A DNA stretch of 64,000 nucleotides. Source: Phascolarctobacterium sp. (GTDB taxonomy: Bacteria > Bacillota > Negativicutes > Acidaminococcales > Acidaminococcaceae). The position numbers and the translations under genes were made by a program. Under the pieces are notes generated by a model that saw only the letters and a list, made by a program, of their open reading frames with translations, made no database searches and was not told the origin of the DNA. The stretch is taken from NCBI RefSeq assembly GCF_030531065.1, contig NZ_JAUNOQ010000002.1:63953-127952 (forward strand), given 5' to 3'. Shown here one piece after another: positions 17,990-48,403 of the stretch (position 1 is the first letter of the stretch; every line of letters begins with the position of its first letter).

Positions 17990-18994
17990 TTATTTTTTGA
18001 TGTCCGCGCCCAACTGCTGCAGCTGCAGCAAAATCCTGTTATACTCGTTCAGCGCCTTATTCAGCTTATCGCCATTGGCTGGAGCCAGCTGCGTCAAATC
18101 ATAAGGCGTATCCTGATAAACGATGTTCAGCCAATTCATATAAAACAGATGCGCATAGCTGCGCCATTTAAACACCGGCTGCTGCGTCGTATCGTTATCG
18201 GGAAAATAGTATTCCGGGATAGCGATGGGCAGGCCTTTTTTCTTATCGCGATAATATTCGTCCGCCAGCGTATAACGGTCGTACTCAAAATGTCCCAGCA
18301 CAAAAATCCGGCGCAAATCTTTAGTCGCGCAGATATTGATGCCGTTTTCTACCGAACGCGATAATACCTGCAAAGCCTTGCAGGCGTCGATAGCGTCGTC
18401 GTCCACCGCCGTATGCCGCGACTGGGGAATAAAATACCGGTCGTCAAAGCCGCGCAGCAGGGGATGGTTGCGCACCGTCAGCCCATAAGGGAAAATACCG
18501 AACATTTTGGCCGGAAGCACAGTCTTGTTGACGCCATAATAATGGTATAACGCCGCCTGTGCGCCCCAGCATAATGTCATAGTAGAATAACAGTGAAACT
18601 CTGCCCAATCCAAATAGGCGACAATTTCCTGCCAGTAATCCACGTTCTCAAACGCGTAGGTTTCTACCGGCGCGCCCGTCATCAAAAAAGCGTCGTAATA
18701 ACGGTTCTTGACGTCCTTAAACTCTAAATAGGCCCTGTCCAGATAGGAATTATCCGTATGGGTGGTTTCACGGCTTACTGTGCGGCAGAAATCCACCTCA
18801 ATCTGCAAGGGCGAATTGCCCAGCAGGCGCAGCAGCTGAATTTCCGTGGGCTTTTTTAGCGGCATCAAATTAAGAATGCACACCTTCAGCGGACGCACGC
18901 GCTGGTTGTTAGCACGTTCCTCCGTCATGGTAAAAATTCCTTCCTCCTGCAGTTGCACAATGGCCGCTAAATTATCGTTGACTTTAATCGGCAT
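17990..18994 (-). CDS. metA: Homoserine O-acetyltransferase (MetA family, Glu111 type)
   Basis: This 334-residue MetA-family acyltransferase carries Cys142 (TLCWGA) as nucleophile and the GHFEYDRYTL block with the catalytic His and Glu. Residue 111 is Glu in the block MTGAPVETYAFENVDYW; in studied MetA enzymes Glu111 marks acetyl-CoA use and Gly marks succinyl-CoA. So, despite the usual name homoserine O-succinyltransferase, acetyl transfer is expected (established knowledge applied to this sequence). It is about 25-30 residues longer than E. coli MetA at the C-terminus. It is the first gene after the T-box. Confidence 0.92.
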   Translation of the reverse strand: MPIKVNDNLAAIVQLQEEGIFTMTEERANNQRVRPLKVCILNLMPLKKPTEIQLLRLLGNSPLQIEVDFCRTVSRETTHTDNSYLDRAYLEFKDVKNRYYDAFLMTGAPVETYAFENVDYWQEIVAYLDWAEFHCYSTMTLCWGAQAALYHYYGVNKTVLPAKMFGIFPYGLTVRNHPLLRGFDDRYFIPQSRHTAVDDDAIDACKALQVLSRSVENGINICATKDLRRIFVLGHFEYDRYTLADEYYRDKKKGLPIAIPEYYFPDNDTTQQPVFKWRSYAHLFYMNWLNIVYQDTPYDLTQLAPANGDKLNKALNEYNRILLQLQQLGADIKK

Positions 18995-19074: not shown

Positions 19075-19372
19075 AAAAAAGCTTCCGTTCCTGTAATACA
19101 TACAGGGACGAAAGCGTAAATTCCGTGATACCACCCTATTTCGTCCATACGTCGCCGCATGAACCTCTTCAAGTACGCAGGGATTGGCTACCCTTTAATA
19201 CTCCAGCGCTGTAACGGGCGCTCCCGGACGGCCTAAATGCGTACATCTCAGCCCATCGACTCCAAGACCATCTTCAATGAAACCATCTGCTCCCCCTTGC
19301 ACCACAGCGGAGGCTCTCTGCGCCAGACTCGCCCATCTACTCTTCTCTTCATAGTCCAAATATTAAGCTATG
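19075..19372 (-). promoter_or_regulatory. T-box leader, methionine type, of metA-metY
   Basis: The minus strand holds the T-box core GGGTGGTATCACGG (19123-19136), which lets uncharged tRNA pair through TGG. A terminator stem follows: GCTTTCGTCCCTGTA with TACAGGAACGGAAGC, then TTTTTT (19075-19116). Upstream is a stem I region with an AGAGAGCC block. The triplet ATG in GAAGATGGTC (19266-19275) is the best specifier candidate, fitting methionine. Low charged tRNA-Met would prevent termination and switch on metA-metY. Confidence 0.88.
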
Positions 19373-22197: not shown

Positions 22198-24852
22198 TTA
22201 CAGCGTAGCGAGATAAGCTAAACGCTCGTTGATAGCGGCCTTCTTGCCGTTCAGCTCGTCAGCCTTAGCCTTCTCCTTGGCGATAACGGCCTCCGGAGCC
22301 TTAGCCAGGAAGCCCGCGTTGCCCAGCTTGCCCTCCACGCGGCTCAGCTCCTTAGCGATAACGGCCAGCTCCTTCTGCAGGCGCTGGTTTTCCTTTTCCA
22401 CATCGATCAGCCCGGCTAAAGGCAGGTAAACCTCGATACCGGCAACAACGGCGGCCATAGCGTTTTCCGGCTTAGCCGCAGTATCGTCCAGCACCGTCAG
22501 CTCGCTGATAGCACCCATCAGGTGCACATAATTGGCGTTAGCCTCCACGCCGGCCTTCAAATCGCCCGCCACCAGCATAATTGCCGGCACCTTCTTTCCT
22601 GGCGGCACATTAACCTCGGCGCGCATATTGCGGACAGCCTTAATGCTTTCCATAATCGCGCCCATCAAGCGCTCGGCCTCGTCGTCGATTAAAGCGGGGT
22701 CGGCCTCCGGCCACTTGGAAATCATAATGCTTTCAGCCTCGTGCGGCAGGCATTGGTAAATTTCCTCCGTGATAAACGGCATATAGGGATGCAGCAACTG
22801 CATAGCGCTCGTCAGCACCTTAGCCAGCACGTGCTGCGCCGTAGCGCGTTCAGCGGCATTTTCTTTATTATACAGGCGCGGCTTAGCCAGCTCTATGTAC
22901 CAGTCGCATACCTCGCCCCAGATGAAGTCGTAAATCATGCGGCCTGCTTCGCCCAGCTCGAATTTTTCCAGCATTTCTGTAACGCCCTTGGCGGTATGCT
23001 GCAGGCGGGACAAGATCCACTTGTCGGCCAACGTATAGGGAGCCAGCTCGGCCTTGGGGTCGTAGCCTTCAATATTCATCAGTGCAAAGCGGGAAGCGTT
23101 CCAAATCTTATTGGCAAAATTGCGGGTAGCCTCCACGCGCTCCCAGTAGAAGCGCATATCGTTGCCCGGCGTATTGCCGGTAATCAGCATAAAGCGCAGG
23201 GTATCCGCGCCATATTTATCGATAACCTCCAGCGGGTCGATGCCGTTGCCTAGGGATTTAGACATTTTGCGACCCAGGCTGTCGCGTACCAGACCGTGGA
23301 TAAAGACCTTCCCAAAGGGCACGTCCTGCATAAATTCCATACCCATAATCAGCATACGCGCTACCCAAAAGAAAATAATATCGTAGCCGGTAACTAACAC
23401 GCTGGTGGGATAGAACTGCTTTAAGAGCGGCGTCTTATCGGGCCAGCCCATCGTGGAGAAAGGCCACAGAGCGCTGCTGAACCAGGTGTCCAGCGCGTCC
23501 TCGTCCTGATGAATGTGAGTGCTGCCGCACTTGGGGCAGGCGGTCAAATCGGTACGACTGGCGCTCATTTCGCCGCAGTCGTCGCAGTACCAAACGGGGA
23601 TACGATGCCCCCACCAAATCTGACGGGAAATGCACCAATCGCGGATATTATCCATCCAGCCGGTATAGGTTTTAGTAAAGCGTTCGGGCACAAATTGCGT
23701 GCGCCCGTCCTCCACGCAATCCACAGCAGCCTTTACCAAAGGCTCCATCTTGACGAACCATTGAGTGGAAACCAAAGGCTCCACAACGCAGCCGCAGCGC
23801 TGGCAATGGCCTACGGCATGGGAATGCTCCTCAATCTTCACCAAATAGCCCTGTTTCTTCAAATCGGCGACGATATTTTTGCGGCACTCCTCGCGGGTCT
23901 GACCTGCGTACTTGCCGGCCTCGTCAGTCATTTTGCCGTCCATACCGATAACGACGATACTGGGCAGATTGTGACGAATGCCCATCTCATAGTCGTTGGG
24001 GTCGTGGGACGGAGTAATCTTTACTGCGCCGGTACCAAATTGCAAATCAACATAGCTGTCGGCAATAATAGGAATGATGCGGTCGGTAGTAGGCAAACGC
24101 AAGGTTTTGCCCACCAGCTTGCCGTAACGCGGGTCCTCGGGGTTGACGGCCACGGCCGTATCGCCGGGAATCGTTTCCGGACGGGTGGTAGCGATGGTCA
24201 GATAGGTGCCTTCTTCCTCCACAACGGGGTAACGCACATACCATAAATGACCGGGATCGTCCTTATGCTCTACCTCGATATCGCTCAAAGCGGTATTGCA
24301 GTTTACGCACCAGTTAGTAATGCGCGTGCCTTTATAAATCAGGCCCTTTTCAAACAGCGTGCAGAAAACCTCGCGCACGGCGCGGGAGCAGCCCTCGTCC
24401 ATAGTGAAGCGCTTGCGCTCCCAATCGCAGGAAACGCCCAAATGCTTCAGCTGGTTGATGATACGGTCGCCGTACTGCTCCTTCCAAGCCCAAACGCGCT
24501 TTAAAAATTCCTCGCGGCCCAAATCGTAACGGGTCTTGCCCTCTTCCTTCTTAATTACTTCCTCTACCTTAATCTGCGTAGCCAGACCGGCATGGTCGTA
24601 GCCGGGCATCCACAGAGTGTTGTGCCCCATCATGCGGTGCCAGCGAATCAGAATATCCTGCAAAGTATTATCCAACGCATGGCCCATATGCAGCTGGCCG
24701 GTAATATTCGGCGGCGGAATAACGATACTAAAGGCCTTATTGCCTTCCTCTACCTCGGCGTGAAAATAACGGTGCTCCTCCCAAAATTTATACCACTTCT
24801 TCTCTACGGAAGCAGGGTCGTATACCTTAGGGATGTTGTGTTCTTCAGACAT
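22198..24852 (-). CDS. valS: Valyl-tRNA synthetase
   Basis: This 884-residue class I synthetase has the HIGH motif as PNITGQLHMGHAL, the KMSKS motif as GRKMSKSLGNGIDP, the editing-domain block TTRPETIPGDTAVAVNPED, and the C-terminal coiled coil rich in Glu/Lys typical of ValRS. Length is normal. A T-box leader precedes it, agreeing with a tRNA-regulated synthetase. Start ATG with GGAGGA. Confidence 0.98.
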   Translation of the reverse strand: MSEEHNIPKVYDPASVEKKWYKFWEEHRYFHAEVEEGNKAFSIVIPPPNITGQLHMGHALDNTLQDILIRWHRMMGHNTLWMPGYDHAGLATQIKVEEVIKKEEGKTRYDLGREEFLKRVWAWKEQYGDRIINQLKHLGVSCDWERKRFTMDEGCSRAVREVFCTLFEKGLIYKGTRITNWCVNCNTALSDIEVEHKDDPGHLWYVRYPVVEEEGTYLTIATTRPETIPGDTAVAVNPEDPRYGKLVGKTLRLPTTDRIIPIIADSYVDLQFGTGAVKITPSHDPNDYEMGIRHNLPSIVVIGMDGKMTDEAGKYAGQTREECRKNIVADLKKQGYLVKIEEHSHAVGHCQRCGCVVEPLVSTQWFVKMEPLVKAAVDCVEDGRTQFVPERFTKTYTGWMDNIRDWCISRQIWWGHRIPVWYCDDCGEMSASRTDLTACPKCGSTHIHQDEDALDTWFSSALWPFSTMGWPDKTPLLKQFYPTSVLVTGYDIIFFWVARMLIMGMEFMQDVPFGKVFIHGLVRDSLGRKMSKSLGNGIDPLEVIDKYGADTLRFMLITGNTPGNDMRFYWERVEATRNFANKIWNASRFALMNIEGYDPKAELAPYTLADKWILSRLQHTAKGVTEMLEKFELGEAGRMIYDFIWGEVCDWYIELAKPRLYNKENAAERATAQHVLAKVLTSAMQLLHPYMPFITEEIYQCLPHEAESIMISKWPEADPALIDDEAERLMGAIMESIKAVRNMRAEVNVPPGKKVPAIMLVAGDLKAGVEANANYVHLMGAISELTVLDDTAAKPENAMAAVVAGIEVYLPLAGLIDVEKENQRLQKELAVIAKELSRVEGKLGNAGFLAKAPEAVIAKEKAKADELNGKKAAINERLAYLATL

Positions 24853-24915: not shown

Positions 24916-25170
24916 TAAAAAATAATCGCCCCATCCGTAAGGGACAGGGCGAAAAGCTTCGTGGTACCACCTATCTTCCCTGTAAATATATACAGGGCGC
25001 TCAAAGCGCGTAACGTGCGCCGACGGCTCTGCCTACTGGCTTTCAGCAAAGCGGCTCCCGGACTACAATTTTTACACCGCCGCAGCAGCTTGCACCACCC
25101 GCTGCCTCTCTGACCCGGCTGACGGTAAAAATCCTTCCGTTCCTTGCCTGTGAATATATAAATTTTATAC
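24916..25170 (-). promoter_or_regulatory. T-box leader of valS
   Basis: The minus strand holds AGGTGGTACCACGAAGC (T-box core, 24956-24972) followed by a terminator stem (TCGCCC at one arm, GGGCGA at the other, 24926-24952) and a T-rich run. The upstream stem I region has GTCAGAGAGGCAGCGGG and an apparent specifier segment TTGTAGTCCGG; GTA or GTC, both valine codons, fit. Which one is read cannot be fixed by eye. Confidence 0.87.
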
Positions 25171-25630: not shown

Positions 25631-26848
25631 TTATGCCTTGCGCACATCCGCCTTAAATTTCAGCACGACAGCTACTGCCAAGCTTACGACAAAACAAGCG
25701 CTGAAGAAGTACAGCGTCACGCTATAGCTATGAGTGCGCTCATAGATTTGCGACAGCAAGAGCGGCCCGACGATTCCCGCCAAGCCCCAGGCCGTAAGAA
25801 TGCGCCCGTGAATAGCGCTGAGCTGTTTCGTTCCGTACAAATCGCTTAAATACGCAGGCATACAGGAAAAGCCGCCGCCATAGCAGGTGATGATAATGAA
25901 AATCAGCAGCTGGAAAAATAAACTGTCCGTCACGCCCGCCAACAGGTAGAAGGCAACGATTTCAATCGCAAAAAACGCGATATACGTATTGCGCCGTCCC
26001 AAATAATCGGAAATCGTGGACCAAACTATGCGCCCGCCGCCGTTGAGCAAGCCGATAACGCCCACCATGGACGCAGCCTCCATGGGCGACATTTTGATAA
26101 CCTCCTGCGCCATAGGCGACGCTACAGCCAGCAAGCCGATGCCGCAGGTAATGTTGGTGAAGAACACCCACCACAAAGCGTAAAACTGCCAGGTGCGCAT
26201 AGCCTCCTGCACGCTGAACTGCCCCTGCTGCTCCGGCAGCTGCACCTTAAAATTACCTTTAGAGGTCAGCTCCGGCATTTTCGGCGGCTCTAAATACAAA
26301 GCGGAGGCCGTCATAACCACAACATAAGCGCAGCCTAAAATTATAAAATTCTCAATCAAGCCGTACTTAGCAATTAAAAGCTGCATTACCGGCCCGGCAA
26401 TCAGGCTGGCAAAGCCAAAGCCCATAATGGCCAGACCGGTCGCCAAGCCGCGGTTCTGCGGAAACCATTTAACCAAGGTGGAAACCGGCGTAATATAACC
26501 CACGCCCAAACCGATGCCGCCGATTACGCCGTAGCTTAAATACAGCAGCGGCAGGCTGTGCCGGCTTAAAGCGTAAGCCGTTCCCAGCATACCGACGCCA
26601 AAAAAAGCGGCGGCTGTCAGCCCGCTTCTGCGCGGGCCGTAGCGTTCCACATAAGTTCCCAAAAAGCCTGCGGACAAACCCAGAAATAAAATCGCCAGCG
26701 AAAAAGTCCAGGTGACCTGCTGTAAGATGAAGCCCATTGCCTGCATAATGGGCCGCGTCAATACGCTCCAGGCGTAAACTGACCCGATGGAAATGTGAAT
26801 CCCGATAGCCGCCAGAACGATAAGCCATTTGTTTTTTGTTTGCTGCAT
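25631..26848 (-). CDS. OFA-family major facilitator transporter
   Basis: This 405-residue protein has 12 predicted membrane helices and the OFA (oxalate/formate antiporter) pattern: an N-terminal HISIGSVYAWSVLTRPIMQ, GLGVGYITPVSTLVKWFP, RGLATGLAIMGFG and GGGRIVWSTISDYLGRR. The family moves small organic anions, including oxalate, formate, lactate and pyruvate. It is a single-gene unit with its own promoter, ZTP riboswitch and terminator. Control by ZTP, which reports low 10-formyl-tetrahydrofolate, makes formate the leading substrate candidate (inference). Start ATG; the immediate upstream has only a weak ribosome site. Confidence 0.87.
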   Translation of the reverse strand: MQQTKNKWLIVLAAIGIHISIGSVYAWSVLTRPIMQAMGFILQQVTWTFSLAILFLGLSAGFLGTYVERYGPRRSGLTAAAFFGVGMLGTAYALSRHSLPLLYLSYGVIGGIGLGVGYITPVSTLVKWFPQNRGLATGLAIMGFGFASLIAGPVMQLLIAKYGLIENFIILGCAYVVVMTASALYLEPPKMPELTSKGNFKVQLPEQQGQFSVQEAMRTWQFYALWWVFFTNITCGIGLLAVASPMAQEVIKMSPMEAASMVGVIGLLNGGGRIVWSTISDYLGRRNTYIAFFAIEIVAFYLLAGVTDSLFFQLLIFIIITCYGGGFSCMPAYLSDLYGTKQLSAIHGRILTAWGLAGIVGPLLLSQIYERTHSYSVTLYFFSACFVVSLAVAVVLKFKADVRKA

Positions 26849-26903
26849 TGTGATTACCTCTTTTCTTCATCATAAATAATGAATATTCAGCAGCCTTGCC
26901 CAT

Positions 26904-27000
26904 AAAAAATCTGGGCAGCAACTGCTTGCCCAGACGGTCGGCCATATCACAACGCAGTCCACGTGGTAAACTCCACTTATCCGTCAGGAGCCGCATTGCT
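26904..27000 (-). promoter_or_regulatory. ZTP (pfl-type) riboswitch before the OFA transporter
   Basis: The minus-strand leader shows the ZTP aptamer marks: P1 made by CAATGCGG (26991-26998) and CTGCGTTG (26950-26957), the CTGACGG element, a GTGG/CCAC hairpin followed by GTGGACTGCG, and the 3' conserved block GCCGACCGTCTGGGCA. The last part doubles as a terminator arm: TCTGGGCA pairs with TGCCCAGA (26910-26934) and TTTTTT follows (26904-26909). Ligand binding would hold the conserved block in the aptamer and allow read-through. Confidence 0.85.
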
Positions 27001-27017
27001 TTTTAAGTTATGTCTTA

Positions 27018-27045
27018 ATTATAGCCCATTCCATGAAATTGTCAA
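27018..27045 (-). promoter_or_regulatory. Promoter of the ZTP riboswitch transcript
   Basis: On the minus strand TTGACA (27040-27045), 16 nt, TATAAT (27018-27023). Confidence 0.75.
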
Positions 27046-27402: not shown

Positions 27403-29556
27403 TTATTTTGCGTCAACGCTCAGTACGTTAGCGCCCTCAGAGGTCTTTTTAGCCGGACGTACCAAGAGGTAGATGAACGCTCCCAGGAACACGGCGGCAA
27501 CGGCCGTACCTGCGCTGAAGCCTTCGCCGCCTACAAAGACGCGGCCAAACTGATAGATGATAAGGCAAACAACATAAGCGTACACGTTTTGGAAAATAAT
27601 GGTTGCCCAGGTCCATTTCTTACTGTTCATTTCCTGGCTCATGGTAGAAATAGCAGCCAGGCACGGGGAATCCAGCAGGTTGAATACCAGGAAGGAGAAG
27701 GCGGCCACAGCGCTGGGGAACATAGCCATAACGGCAGTCCACAGGTCGGGCTCTTCTTCGGTCGCTTCAGCCAGGCCAGCCAGAATAGCCATGGTGCTGA
27801 CGATTGCTTCCTTAGCCACAAAGCCGGAGAAAGCGGCGGCCACAGCCTGCCAGCTATCGAAGCCCAGAGGGGAGAAGATGGGAGCCAGCGCATTACCGAT
27901 AACGGCGATGAAGCTTTGCTCGGTTTCTTCTACCATAGCTAGGCTGCCGTCAACCAAGCCGTAGCTTGCCAGGAACCACATAGCTACGCAGCACAGGAAG
28001 ATGATGGTACCGGCTTTTTTCAGGAAGCCGGCAACGCGCTCCCAGGTGTGCAGCAATACGTTTTTCGCAGCGGGCAGATGATACGGCGGCATTTCCATTA
28101 CGAAGGGAGCAGGATCGCCTGCGAACAGCTCGCTCTTTTTCAAAATGATGCAGGAGGTAACAACGGCGAAGAAGCCGACAAAGTACATAATAGGAGCCAT
28201 GTACCACTCGCCGCCCATAATCGCGCCGCTCAGCAAAGCGATAACCGGCAGCTTAGCGCCGCAGGGGATAAAGGTGGTGGTCATGATGGTCAAACGGCGA
28301 TCCTTTTCATTTTCAATAGTACGGCTGGCCATGATGCCGGGAACGCCGCAGCCGGAGGAGATCAGCAGAGGAATGAAGCTCTTGCCGCTCATGCCGAACT
28401 GACGGAAGAAACGGTCCATAATAAAAGCCACGCGAGCCATATAACCGCAGTCCTCAAGGAAGCTCAGCAGCAGGAAAACGATAGCCATTTGCGGTGCGAA
28501 GCCGATAGGCGCGCCGATACCGCCGATAATGCCGTCAACAACCAAAGAAACCATCCAGTCCTCAGTACCGGCAGCTTCCAGATTTTCCTGAACCCAGGGC
28601 ATAATCCACTCGCCGAACAGGGTATCGTTGGTAAAGTCGGTAACAATCGTACCCAGGGAATCCACGGCGATATAATAAACAAGGAACATAACGACTGCAA
28701 AGATAGGCAACGCCAGGAAGCGGTTGGTAACGATGCGGTCGATTTTATCAGAGGTAGTCAGGCCGGTCTGCCCCTTTACTACAGCCTGCTGCATCAGCTG
28801 GCCGATGAAATTGTAACGCTCGTTGGTAATGATGCTTTCGCTGTCGTCGTCCATTTGCTCCTCGCAAGCGGCTACGATTTCTTCCAGCTTAGCCTTTTCG
28901 CCTTCGCTGAAATTCAAAGCGCTCATAATCTTAGCGTCGCGTTCAAAAATTTTAATAGCCAGCCAACGCTCGCTGGCGCCGGAAATCTTCTTGCCTGCTT
29001 CGCGGGTGATGGCTTTCAAGGCTTCCTCTACCTCAGCGCTGAAACGCATATAACGGGGCGCAGCTCCGCCTGCGGCGCTGATGGCCGCTTCTGCTGCGGC
29101 GCTGGTGCCTTCGCCCCGCAAAGCGGAGGTTTCAACAATATGACAGCCCAGTTCGCCGGACAGCTTTTTAATATCCAGCTTGTCGCCGTTTTTGCGAACG
29201 ATATCCATCATGTTCATAGCGATGGCTACGGGAATACCCATTTCCATAACCTGCGTAGTCAAATAGAGATTACGCTCAATATTGGAACCGTCTACCAGAT
29301 TCAAAATAGCGTCTACCTTGTCCTCCAGCAGATAATTACGGGAAATTACTTCCTCCAAGGTGTAAGGAGACAGGGAATAAATACCGGGCAGGTCGGTAAC
29401 AATTACGTCATCATGCCCTTTCAGACGACCTTCCTTTTTCTCTACAGTTACGCCGGGCCAGTTGCCTACATATTGCTTGGAACCGGTCAAATCATTAAAC
29501 ATAGTGGTTTTGCCGCAGTTAGGGTTGCCAACTAAAGCAATTTTTATCTCTTTCAT
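27403..29556 (-). CDS. feoB: Ferrous iron transporter FeoB
   Basis: This 717-residue protein has an N-terminal G domain: G1 GNPNCGKTT (10-18), DLPGIYSL as G3 and NMMD as G4, followed by the helical GDI-like region, then two Gate regions with Cys-containing blocks (SGCGVPGIMASRTIENEKDR and FIPCGAKLPV) and about eight membrane helices. It imports Fe2+ across the inner membrane. The ATG at 29556 has GGGGAGG 6 nt upstream; a GTG directly before it is less likely. Two feoA genes precede it. Confidence 0.97.
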   Translation of the reverse strand: MKEIKIALVGNPNCGKTTMFNDLTGSKQYVGNWPGVTVEKKEGRLKGHDDVIVTDLPGIYSLSPYTLEEVISRNYLLEDKVDAILNLVDGSNIERNLYLTTQVMEMGIPVAIAMNMMDIVRKNGDKLDIKKLSGELGCHIVETSALRGEGTSAAAEAAISAAGGAAPRYMRFSAEVEEALKAITREAGKKISGASERWLAIKIFERDAKIMSALNFSEGEKAKLEEIVAACEEQMDDDSESIITNERYNFIGQLMQQAVVKGQTGLTTSDKIDRIVTNRFLALPIFAVVMFLVYYIAVDSLGTIVTDFTNDTLFGEWIMPWVQENLEAAGTEDWMVSLVVDGIIGGIGAPIGFAPQMAIVFLLLSFLEDCGYMARVAFIMDRFFRQFGMSGKSFIPLLISSGCGVPGIMASRTIENEKDRRLTIMTTTFIPCGAKLPVIALLSGAIMGGEWYMAPIMYFVGFFAVVTSCIILKKSELFAGDPAPFVMEMPPYHLPAAKNVLLHTWERVAGFLKKAGTIIFLCCVAMWFLASYGLVDGSLAMVEETEQSFIAVIGNALAPIFSPLGFDSWQAVAAAFSGFVAKEAIVSTMAILAGLAEATEEEPDLWTAVMAMFPSAVAAFSFLVFNLLDSPCLAAISTMSQEMNSKKWTWATIIFQNVYAYVVCLIIYQFGRVFVGGEGFSAGTAVAAVFLGAFIYLLVRPAKKTSEGANVLSVDAK

Positions 29557-29569
29557 CACTAGCCTCCCC

Positions 29570-30256: not shown

Positions 30257-33200
30257 TTATATTTTCTTATACAGAATGCGGATGGAATTCAATACGCACA
30301 GCAGGGATACGCCCGTATCGGCGAACACTGCCGCCCACATGGACGCATAGCCCATCAGACCGGCAACCATAATGATAACCTTTACCGCCAGCGCGAAGAT
30401 AACATTCTGCCAGGCGATAGCGCCCGTAGCGCGGGCAATGGCGATAGCCTGAGGAATAGCTTTGACCTCGGAGTTCATGAATACTACGTCCGCAGCCTCG
30501 ATAGCGGCGTCCGCGCCGCTGCCCATGGCAGCGCCTGCGTCCGCACCGGCCAATACCGGAGCGTCGTTAATGCCGTCGCCGACGAACATTACCGGGCCGT
30601 ACTTATTGCGCAGCATATTCAGCTCGCTCAATTTATCCTGCGGCAGCAGCTGAGCGCGTACTTCGTCGATGCCTGCGGCGGCGGCCACAGCCTCCGCTTC
30701 CTTCTGCGCGTCGCCTGTCAGCATAGCGGTAACCAGACCCTGCTTCTTGAGCGAAGCGATGGCGTCCTTAGCGTCCTCTTTCAAAGTATCGTTAATCAAA
30801 AGCTGGCCAAGATAAATTTTATCGTCGGCTACCAAAACTTCGCTGCCGCTAATCGTGGGAGTGTAACCGCCGTAATCGACGCCAAAGCGTTCCAGCAGCT
30901 TAGCGTTGCCGCACAGCAGGCGGCGCGCGCCAAAGTAAGCTACCAGGCCTTCGCCTGCGATTTCTTCAAATTTATTGGGACGCACCAGCGGCAGTTCCTT
31001 GCCCTTAGCGGCTTCCACAATACTTACCGCGATGGGGTGCGTAGACACCAGCTCGGCGCTGGCCGTCAGTTTAAGCAATTCGTCTTTATCGATGCCCTCG
31101 GCAGCGTTAACCTGCTGCAGAACGAAGTTGCCTTTGGTAACAGTGCCGGTTTTATCCATAACTACGGCGGCAATATTTTTCAAAGCCTCCATAGCTACGC
31201 CGCCCTTGAACAGAATGCCGTATTTGGAACCCGTGCCGATACCGCTGAAGAAGGCCAGAGGCACGCTCAGCACCAAAGCGCAGGGACAGCTGATTACCAG
31301 GAAGGTCAAGGCGGTGTAAATCCATTTTTCCCATTCGCCGGTAATCAAGGAAGGAACAACGGCAGTCACTACTGCGGCGGCTACTACAAAGGGAGTATAA
31401 ATCCGCGCGAAGCGGGTAATGAAGCGGTCGATGGTCGGCTTGGAAGCGGCGGCGTTTTCTACGCTGTCCAGAATGCGAGTTACCATGGATTCAGACAGAA
31501 CCTTTTCCACGCGGATTTTCAGCATACCGCTGGTATTCACGCAGCCGGAAACGATTTCATCGCCATAAGTGCGCTTTACAGGTACGGGTTCGCCGGTTAC
31601 CGGGGAAGTATCAACCAGGCTTTCGCCCTCGATAACTACGCCGTCCAAAGGAATACGGTCGCCTACGCGCACCAGCAGGATATCGCCTACATGAGCGTCC
31701 TCAGCCGGAATAACCTTTACTTCTTCGCCTACCAGCAGGTTGACAACCTCCGGACGCATATCCACGGCGTCCATAATCTGGCCGCGGCTTTTTTCTACGG
31801 CGCGCTGCTCGAAGTATTCGCCCACGCGGTAGAAGAACATTACTCCTACAGCTTCTTCCCATGCCTGAATGGCGAACGCGCCCAAAGTAGCGACAGTCAT
31901 CAAAAAGTTTTCATCAAAGACATTGCCCTTAGCTATATTTTTCAGCGCCGTCAGCACAATGCGTCCGCCCAGCAAAATATAAGCGAAAATCAGGCAGTAC
32001 ATATGATAGGCTTCGGGAATCAGCCCCAGCCATTCGGTAACGATGAAAACCGCGCCGCCCAAAACGATTTCAATTAAGGTTTGCTTTTCGCTGAGCGTCG
32101 AGAAGATGCCGCCTGCTTTTTTGCGCTCTTCCAGCTCCGGCGCCAAATTAGGCTTGGAAGCGGCTTCTACCAGCACTACGCCTTCCTCTACTTTATCGGT
32201 AACGGCCTGCATTTTTTCCAGCAAACCGTCGTAATTCTGAGCCTTAACGCGCAGCTTTTTCGTCGTAAAGGTCAAGGTTGCACTTTCAATCTCCGGCATA
32301 GCGGCCAAAGCGCGCTCGATTTTAGCGCCGCAGTTAGCGCAGTCCAGGTTCTGCACCAAATAAACGTGCCCGCTGTCCTTGCTCAAGGTAGGCCGTTTAT
32401 CGCGGGGCACTACCTCTACGTCAGATTCAATGGAAGTACAAATTTCCTGAATAATCGGCAGTAAGGCGTCGTGGTCGGCGGCGCTCAAGCGCAGCTGCTT
32501 AGTCGCAAAGCTGATGTTAGCATAGGTTACTCCCGGCAGCTCCTTGATTTTGTATTCCATCTTGGCGGCGCAGTTAGCACAGCCCAAATTCTTCAATATA
32601 TATACGCGCTTTACCTTATCGGCGTCCGGCATACGGCAGGTGCAATTAGCCAAGCTCTCGCCGCACACATCGCAATATTCCTCGTGCGGATGGCAAATTT
32701 CGCACTGGCAATCATCGGGATGCCCCGGAACATGGTGACTATGATTATGAGCGTGCTCGTGGCCGTGGTCATGCCCGCAGCCGCACTCGTCGCCGTGTTC
32801 GTGATGATGTTCTTCGTGCGCATGAGCGTGACCTTCATGCTCATGGCCATGGTCATGCCCGCAGCCGCATTCGTCGCCGTGGTCATGATGATCCTCTTCT
32901 TTGTGCCCATGCCCGTGGTCGTGTCCGCAGCCGCATTCGTCTCCGTGCTCGTGATGATGCTCTTCATGCTCGTGACCATGGTCGTGCCCGCAGCAGCAAT
33001 CCGCCCCATGCTCATGATGATCTTCTTCATGGTCGTGGTCATGCGCGTGATCGTGGGAATGAACGTCCCCATCGCCATGAGTATGGGCAGGAACATGACC
33101 CATCGTTTCATGGCTGTGGTCCTTACCGCAGCGCCCGCAGGTGCAGCCGTCCGGGTGGTTGCTATAATCCTCAGCGCCGCTAATGCGTCCATCGACATGA

Positions 33201-33265
33201 CGGAAGGAGCGTACATCGCCGGAGCCAATGCGCACGTCTTCTAAGTCGCGTACTTCTTTCTTCAT
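30257..33265 (-). CDS. Zn/Cd/Pb-type P1B ATPase with His/Cys-rich repeat region and two HMA domains
   Basis: This 1002-residue heavy-metal exporter has an unusual N-terminal region (about residues 37-210) with four copies of a CGHDHGH repeat and extra Cys pairs, then two HMA domains with CANC motifs at 229-232 and 309-312, then the P1B core: TGEP actuator loop, membrane CPC (ISCPCALVLS), DKTGT phosphorylation site, the STHP nucleotide-binding His-Pro and GDGINDAP. CPC and the Lys- and Asp-containing last helices fit the Zn/Cd/Pb class (P1B-2) rather than copper. Most family members have 700-800 residues. It is a single gene with SmtB-like operators upstream. Confidence 0.93.
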   Translation of the reverse strand: MKKEVRDLEDVRIGSGDVRSFRHVDGRISGAEDYSNHPDGCTCGRCGKDHSHETMGHVPAHTHGDGDVHSHDHAHDHDHEEDHHEHGADCCCGHDHGHEHEEHHHEHGDECGCGHDHGHGHKEEDHHDHGDECGCGHDHGHEHEGHAHAHEEHHHEHGDECGCGHDHGHEHAHNHSHHVPGHPDDCQCEICHPHEEYCDVCGESLANCTCRMPDADKVKRVYILKNLGCANCAAKMEYKIKELPGVTYANISFATKQLRLSAADHDALLPIIQEICTSIESDVEVVPRDKRPTLSKDSGHVYLVQNLDCANCGAKIERALAAMPEIESATLTFTTKKLRVKAQNYDGLLEKMQAVTDKVEEGVVLVEAASKPNLAPELEERKKAGGIFSTLSEKQTLIEIVLGGAVFIVTEWLGLIPEAYHMYCLIFAYILLGGRIVLTALKNIAKGNVFDENFLMTVATLGAFAIQAWEEAVGVMFFYRVGEYFEQRAVEKSRGQIMDAVDMRPEVVNLLVGEEVKVIPAEDAHVGDILLVRVGDRIPLDGVVIEGESLVDTSPVTGEPVPVKRTYGDEIVSGCVNTSGMLKIRVEKVLSESMVTRILDSVENAAASKPTIDRFITRFARIYTPFVVAAAVVTAVVPSLITGEWEKWIYTALTFLVISCPCALVLSVPLAFFSGIGTGSKYGILFKGGVAMEALKNIAAVVMDKTGTVTKGNFVLQQVNAAEGIDKDELLKLTASAELVSTHPIAVSIVEAAKGKELPLVRPNKFEEIAGEGLVAYFGARRLLCGNAKLLERFGVDYGGYTPTISGSEVLVADDKIYLGQLLINDTLKEDAKDAIASLKKQGLVTAMLTGDAQKEAEAVAAAAGIDEVRAQLLPQDKLSELNMLRNKYGPVMFVGDGINDAPVLAGADAGAAMGSGADAAIEAADVVFMNSEVKAIPQAIAIARATGAIAWQNVIFALAVKVIIMVAGLMGYASMWAAVFADTGVSLLCVLNSIRILYKKI
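32730..33020 (-). repeat. In-frame tandem repeats encoding CGHDHGH units
   Basis: Four imperfect tandem copies (spacing 21-33 residues) encode HG-x-x-C-x-CGHDHGH within the P-type ATPase N-terminus, about residues 84-178. The DNA is correspondingly repetitive, so copy number may vary between strains and assembly may be fragile here. Confidence 0.85.
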
Positions 33266-38737: not shown

Positions 38738-38935
38738 CCTTCTCCGCTCGCAGCAGAAAAGGTATATAACATAACGTGCACTATTATGCAATATATTTCT
38801 GTCTCAAGCGGAAATATATCAAACTGAGGCAGAGGTCTGACTTGCGCAAAGGCTTCACAGTGGCTGGACCGTTACGGATTTGCACCGTATTCCCATTTTA
38901 TCTCCGTTTATTTAGAGACAACCTCAGCAGATTTA
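38738..38935 (-). promoter_or_regulatory. Cobalamin riboswitch with terminator, upstream of the ABC operon
   Basis: The minus-strand leader contains the conserved series GGGAATACGGTGCAAATCC, the core GCCACTGTG and the B12-box-like AAGTCAGACCTCTGCC, closed by CTGAGG/CCTCAG pairing. Then comes a terminator: CCTTTTCTGC with GCGGAGAAGG (38738-38762), followed by TTATTTTAT. Cobalamin binding should favour termination and shut off the transporter. The core departs slightly from the commonest GCAACTG form. Confidence 0.87.
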
Positions 38936-38997
38936 ATAATTTTATTATTATCGTAAAGCGTACTATTGATAAATTTTACACATAACGCTTTGTATCT

Positions 38998-44640: not shown

Positions 44641-44848
44641 TTATCCGCCTAAAAAAATTGGCGGGGAACTTCCCCGCCTGTGATGGACCCAGGTCTTATG
44701 ACCAGCCCAATCAGTTGCACTGATTTTCTAAATATATTGTAAAAAAAAGCTCTAAAAAGTCAAGTAATTTGCAAGGTTGTTTTCAACACAAAGCGGGACG
44801 GCTGCGCCGTCCCGTAGAAAAAACATTTTTCTTTAGACAATCTTGTGA
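44641..44848. other. Intergenic region with inverted repeats
   Basis: The region holds GGCGGGGAA/TTCCCCGCC (44660-44680), TGGACCCAGG followed by a short decayed stretch, and GGGACGGC hairpin copy 2 (44794-44814). No gene is seen. Confidence 0.5.
44794..44814. repeat. GGGACGGC hairpin, copy 2
   Basis: CGGGACGGC (44794-44802) pairs with GCCGTCCCG (44806-44814). The stem and its TGC/GCA loop are identical to copy 3. There is no T-run directly beside it on either strand. Confidence 0.7.
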
Positions 44849-48250: not shown

Positions 48251-48293
48251 TACAAATAATCTCTTTGCACTGCGATATTTGAGCTACAGTACA

Positions 48294-48403
48294 AACTGAT
48301 CAGGCGGTAAACCTGCAAGGGTTTTTGCAGCCGGGCCCCTTGGGGCAGCAGACAGCGTTTCAACGTCTGCGGGACAGTTAATTACTATTCCGCAGGCGTT
48401 TTT
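48294..48403 (+). promoter_or_regulatory. NiCo riboswitch with terminator before the CDF exporter
   Basis: The leader shows the czcD/NiCo pattern: AACTGATCAGGC at the start, a hairpin ending in GCAGCCGGGC, then GGGGCAGCAGAC and GTCTGCGGGACAGTT at the end, with AACTG pairing CAGTT to close the four-way junction (48294-48379). The last helix overlaps a terminator: CGTCTGCGG with CCGCAGGCG, then TTTTT (48364-48403). Ni2+ or Co2+ binding should stabilise the aptamer and allow transcription of the exporter. Confidence 0.88.

Follow-up and report, generated by a model that had tools for sequence, protein, structure and literature searches.

The locus

The window, that is, the whole 64,000-nucleotide stretch of Phascolarctobacterium sp. 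DNA analyzed here, carries on its minus strand a full-length open reading frame of 405 amino acids (26848-25631) for an MFS carboxylate transporter, predicted to import formate. Its ATG is preceded by a ribosome-binding site, AGAGGT (26863-26857, minus strand), read directly from the sequence, as was the intrinsic terminator upstream of it (26933-26904, minus strand; CTGGGCA-AGCAGTTGC-TGCCCAG-ATTTTTT). The terminator overlaps a ZMP/ZTP riboswitch aptamer of the class RF01750 (27002-26921, minus strand), assigned by an Rfam covariance match and by covariation in its P1 stem. Directly upstream of the aptamer lies a predicted sigma-70-type promoter (27045-27018, minus strand; TTGACA-16-TATAAT), which matches the consensus at 12 of 12 positions. 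The first base of its -35 box, 27045, is also where the initial annotation had ended the feature.

The window holds other regulatory RNAs as well. T-box leaders precede a valyl-tRNA synthetase-like gene (leader 24942-25153, minus strand; gene 22198-24852) and a gene for a MetA-like homoserine acyltransferase (leader 19101-19361, minus strand; gene 17990-18994). A NiCo riboswitch (48286-48379, plus strand), a cobalamin riboswitch (38811-38941, minus strand) and a DUF3800-XI RNA (44663-44709, minus strand) are also present. A P-type metal ATPase-like protein of 1002 amino acids (30257-33265, minus strand) has a long N-terminus rich in His and Asp, with HDHGHEH-type repeats; its gene adjoins a FeoB-like gene (27403-29559).

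A ZTP riboswitch with an overlapping terminator

That the leader is a ZMP/ZTP riboswitch is nearly certain. The initial annotation had read P1, a hairpin and the CTGGGCA block of this class in the leader and had proposed a covariance-model search as a check. The search bore this reading out: RF01750 matches over its full length (model positions 1-86) with 45.7 bits, against a gathering score of 39, and with an E value of 2.8e-4 when the 64-kb window was searched with all of Rfam, or 2.5e-6 when the organism's own genome was searched alone. The aptamer core, GCCGACCGTCTGGGC, is conserved among the transporter-linked leaders of relatives. For comparison, 24 such leaders from the Negativicutes were assembled, each an Rfam-located aptamer with its downstream sequence. 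These have the GCCGACCG..CTGGGC core together with P1 and P2 of RF01750, and compensatory changes were seen at all nine of the nine predicted P1 pairs. A chance match to the aptamer was considered and rejected, given the Rfam scores, the ZTP leaders of relatives, the conserved core and the P1 covariation.

The aptamer's own CTGGGCA block (26933-26927, minus strand) doubles as the 5' arm of the terminator, so the last block of the aptamer is used twice, as had been claimed at the outset. Equivalent stems, overlapping the CTGGGC block and followed by four or more T residues, occur in 21 of 22 transporter leaders. In the 24 aligned leaders, the terminator stem with the CTGGGC block is conserved mainly by G-U/G-C exchanges. 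A simple terminator scan did not pick up the terminator at 26933-26904 because its loop is 9 nt long, and a minimum-energy fold of the leader alone did not show aptamer and terminator together. Because the two structures compete for one block, ligand binding should prevent the terminator from forming. The architecture, as written in the sequence, is thus that of a transcriptional ON switch; we infer the response of this leader to ZTP from its riboswitch class.

Tandem arrangements were also seen. Two ZTP aptamers in tandem lie 5' of the transporter gene in a Sporomusaceae MAG (L157; 1335-1417 and 1452-1534) and in G061:C17, G093:C100 and G096:C138. Tandem ZTP riboswitches are already known (PMC9481103); the tandem-ZTP passages of that paper do not mention a transporter as their target. 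They do describe tandem ZTP riboswitches at moeA, which a further case resembles, where tandem aptamers stand 5' of a MoeA-like gene (L227; G126:C1:486800-490800).

The genes under ZTP control

Earlier work has described the ZTP riboswitch class and tied it to formyl-THF (PMC2864571, PMC7266159). Published targets include purH, fhs, pfl, glyA and folD, and according to Weinberg et al. the other targets are mostly enzymes (PMC2864571). The leader studied here shares with the class (the pfl motif, RF01750) its consensus sequence and structure and its overlapping terminator. The class controls genes for 10-formyl-THF and purines; here, by contrast, the controlled gene encodes a transporter. No link between ZTP and a transporter of the OFA/SfMCT type was found in the searchable literature, although an earlier mention is possible.

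The organism's own genome carries ZTP riboswitches at two places, before the AICAR transformylase gene and before the transporter gene, and the formate-THF ligase Fhs was detected in it. Among 61 relatives, 57 have a ZTP match. The first genes 3' of their aptamers are pflB, pflA-like, fhs, AICAR transformylase, fchA-like, folP-like and the transporter, names given partly by eye from N-termini, with pflB and fhs also backed by coordinates.

Of 150 evenly sampled Negativicutes genomes, 66 have a homolog of at least 52% identity. A ZTP leader lies directly upstream of that homolog in 62 of the 66, a count in which 20 leaders were recognized by their core motif, outside the listed covariance-model matches, and which includes a degraded-looking copy at contig ends in G014. 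The gene in that genome (L007, L107) appears to have frameshifts or stops and is split over contigs. In two genomes outside the 62, G015 and G020, a gene for PurC (SAICAR synthetase) lies shortly before that of the transporter, and pfl carries the ZTP leader. A second set, of 80 named homologs, comprises 27 from the Negativicutes and 53 from elsewhere. All 27 of the former have a ZTP leader, 25 at the Rfam gathering score and two by core motif.

The transporter protein

The solved structure nearest in sequence is SfMCT, the Syntrophobacter L-lactate transporter (6g9x; E value 9e-36), followed by the oxalate:formate antiporter OxlT (8hpj; 2e-26), and matches to these two fix the predicted fold. 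Family models are less decisive. The protein passes the NCBIfam equivalog NF049980, "L-lactate MFS transporter," with 393.5 bits against a cut-off of 320. It reaches neither the cut-off of TIGR00890 (OFA; 218.9 bits against 374.85), which SfMCT also misses with 224.8, nor that of TIGR04259 (OxlT; 162 bits against 335). The OFA family named by the initial annotation is a loose label, since the OFA model is missed and the SfMCT "L-lactate" model is passed. The latter is itself too broad to discriminate, because Bacillus proteins linked to PurT or to formate dehydrogenase score 454 and 459 on it, above the 407 of SfMCT. The model probably mislabels many transporters.

The predicted pocket consists of Y25, Y118, F144, N269, R273, Y323, F327, L351 and W354, with a single arginine. 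This set is invariant in 76 aligned proteins linked to ZTP leaders, PurT, formate dehydrogenase (FDH) or fhs, save for one gap at W354. SfMCT has equivalents of six of these residues (Y29, Y119, N276, R280, Y331 and F335), but has L145, F359 and C362 where F144, L351 and W354 stand here. Rooting the tree on OxlT places the ZTP clade of the Negativicutes together with the FDH/PurT clade of the Bacillales, and SfMCT stands apart, outside the formate-linked clade. The homologs of the window's transporter have formate-related neighbors.

In OxlT, oxalate is bound by two basic residues, Arg272 and Lys355, and neither is dispensable (PMC10070484). The present protein shares with OxlT (8hpj/8hpk) the fold, an aromatic pocket and the equivalent of Arg272 (R273), but Lys355 is replaced by Trp354, here and in essentially all context-linked homologs. 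This disfavors oxalate. Oxalate as the main substrate was rejected on this replacement and on the missed TIGR04259 cut-off.

Gene neighborhoods of homologs

Outside the Negativicutes, where homologs are 51-58% identical, a formate gene lies at most 1.6 kb away in 46 of the 53 named homologs. Neighbors were identified by NCBIfam in representatives and by BLAST clustering to these in the remaining members. In 7 of the 46, the gene directly upstream, in the same orientation, encodes PurT, the formate-dependent GAR transformylase; FdhF/YdeP-like proteins, formate dehydrogenase alpha or FdhD are encoded near 36, pflB-pflA lie near two and an FNT channel near one. In Bacillales (L135-L191), the transporter gene is repeatedly separated from the FdhF/YdeP-like gene by one for a small protein with an MpsC domain (PF10057).

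Distant Negativicutes paralogs (about 37% identity) have comparable surroundings. The fhs gene is adjacent in L226 (1039 bits), L237 and G038:C32, folD is adjacent in L236, and the paralog in L225 (also about 37%) has a ZTP leader.

Across phyla and operon types, formate is the one thing that these neighbors have in common, and apart from the pfl case each of them uses it up or transports it. That case is a Verrucomicrobia homolog in a pflB-pflA operon, where export would be at least as likely as import.

Distribution of pyruvate formate-lyase and FocA

Neither pyruvate formate-lyase (PFL) nor a FocA/FNT channel was detected in the organism's own genome, which is 99.5% complete. The family was sampled with 29 near-complete Acidaminococcaceae genomes, the family being placed via L151, Acidaminococcus intestini. 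PFL or FocA/FNT was found in 2 of the 14 genomes with the ZTP-transporter versus 14 of the 15 without it (Fisher p = 2.2e-5); PFL itself is absent from all 14. Replacement is visible within genera. In g13, two genomes carry the transporter but lack PFL, and five show the opposite pattern; in g14, the transporter occurs in one genome and FocA in four. FocA/FNT channels have a fold unrelated to that of MFS proteins but the same predicted physiological role, moving formate across the membrane, and genomes of g14 carry one or the other. One further member of the family, G021 (1.3 Mb, 98% complete), was searched for PFL, FocA and a close transporter homolog, and none was detected; its fhs is under ZTP control.

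Across the 150 Negativicutes genomes, PFL is found in 29 of the 62 with a ZTP-transporter versus 57 of the 88 without (p = 0.03). This pattern is weak because genomes of the Selenomonadaceae and Veillonella types often have both. A rule that the ZTP-transporter occurs only where PFL is absent was therefore rejected for the class, with its 29 PFL-positive cases; it holds only in the Acidaminococcaceae. Among PFL-positive genomes, ZTP control of either pfl or the transporter is a trend (7/37 versus 22/49, p = 0.013; G108 and G166 are included in the counts) that ignores phylogeny. The presence/absence tests all do so, of course, and genomes of one lineage are not independent observations.

What is transported, and in which direction

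These gene neighborhoods, which converge from separate phyla, make formate the likely substrate. Formate had been proposed in the initial annotation, and the proposal gains support from the PurT, FDH, FdhD and pflB-pflA neighbors, from fhs and folD beside paralogs, from the ZTP regulon and from the distribution of PFL and FocA. Presumably, the transporter works as an importer, coupled for example to H+ symport. Nothing on an OFA-PurT link or on this clade as formate transporters was found in the searchable literature.

Other substrates must, of course, be weighed. A transporter that scores above the cut-off of NF049980, and whose nearest solved relative is SfMCT, might import a monocarboxylate such as L-lactate or pyruvate, which would feed one-carbon metabolism after conversion through pyruvate to formate; some genomes with the transporter do have the PFL for this. 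However, the organism's own genome and the 14 Acidaminococcaceae with the ZTP-transporter are without PFL, and lactate could therefore not give formate by the PFL route in them. Further, the enzymes encoded beside homologs (PurT, FDH, Fhs) use formate, lactate dehydrogenase is not among the recurring neighbors, SfMCT scores below the FDH- and PurT-linked proteins on the very model that suggests lactate, and pocket positions 144, 351 and 354 are unlike those of SfMCT. This explanation is held to be unlikely. Still more improbable is import of a different one-carbon or folate precursor anion, such as p-aminobenzoate or glyoxylate, and the chance of it is put very low. The ZTP-controlled folP-like gene in one relative (L074, named by eye) implies that folate supply can belong to the regulon, but genes for pABA, folate synthesis or glyoxylate are not among the recurring neighbors of homologs, and neither compound is of use in the FDH and PurT contexts.

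The direction of transport may also be questioned. The protein shares its fold with an oxalate:formate antiporter, and the Verrucomicrobia operons of pflB, pflA and transporter would suit a formate exporter, or an OxlT-like antiporter of formate and another anion, serving pH or redox balance. Yet ZTP signals a shortage of 10-formyl-THF, under which loss of formate would be harmful. The PurT, FDH and Fhs contexts use formate up, no PFL was detected in the organism's own genome as a maker of formate, and Lys355 of OxlT is absent. Export or antiport is accordingly given little credence. A transcriptional ZTP ON switch for a formate importer that feeds formate-THF ligase is, in our judgment, quite probably the correct description of the unit.

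A proposed mechanism

Under this description, a shortage of 10-formyl-THF would stall AICAR transformylase, and ZMP and ZTP would accumulate. ZTP would then stabilize the nascent aptamer, making the CTGGGCA block unavailable; the terminator would not form and the transporter would be made. This MFS transporter, of the SfMCT/OxlT type, would bring formate into the cell, where Fhs would convert it to 10-formyl-THF for purine synthesis. AICAR would be formylated and the signal would fall. In the genome of this gut anaerobe, where PFL and a FocA-type channel were not detected, the importer may do what ZTP-controlled pfl does in many relatives.

Implications

The same reasoning may extend beyond this locus. 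On balance, we favor the view that a widespread, formate-associated clade of SfMCT/OFA-like MFS transporters, at present labeled "OFA" or "L-lactate transporter," is a second bacterial family of formate transporters besides FNT/FocA, deployed in ZTP regulons in the Negativicutes, in purT operons in Bacillus-type species and in FDH/fhs clusters elsewhere, and replacing PFL as the source of one-carbon units in the Acidaminococcaceae. This would give a large and poorly named transporter clade a testable substrate, many of whose members may well be misnamed by the automatic label "L-lactate MFS transporter." It would also widen the ZTP alarmone regulon, in which one-carbon units would be imported as well as made. 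For the organisms themselves, the prediction is that gut Acidaminococcaceae without pyruvate formate-lyase rely on formate that their neighbors release, which would be a specific cross-feeding link.
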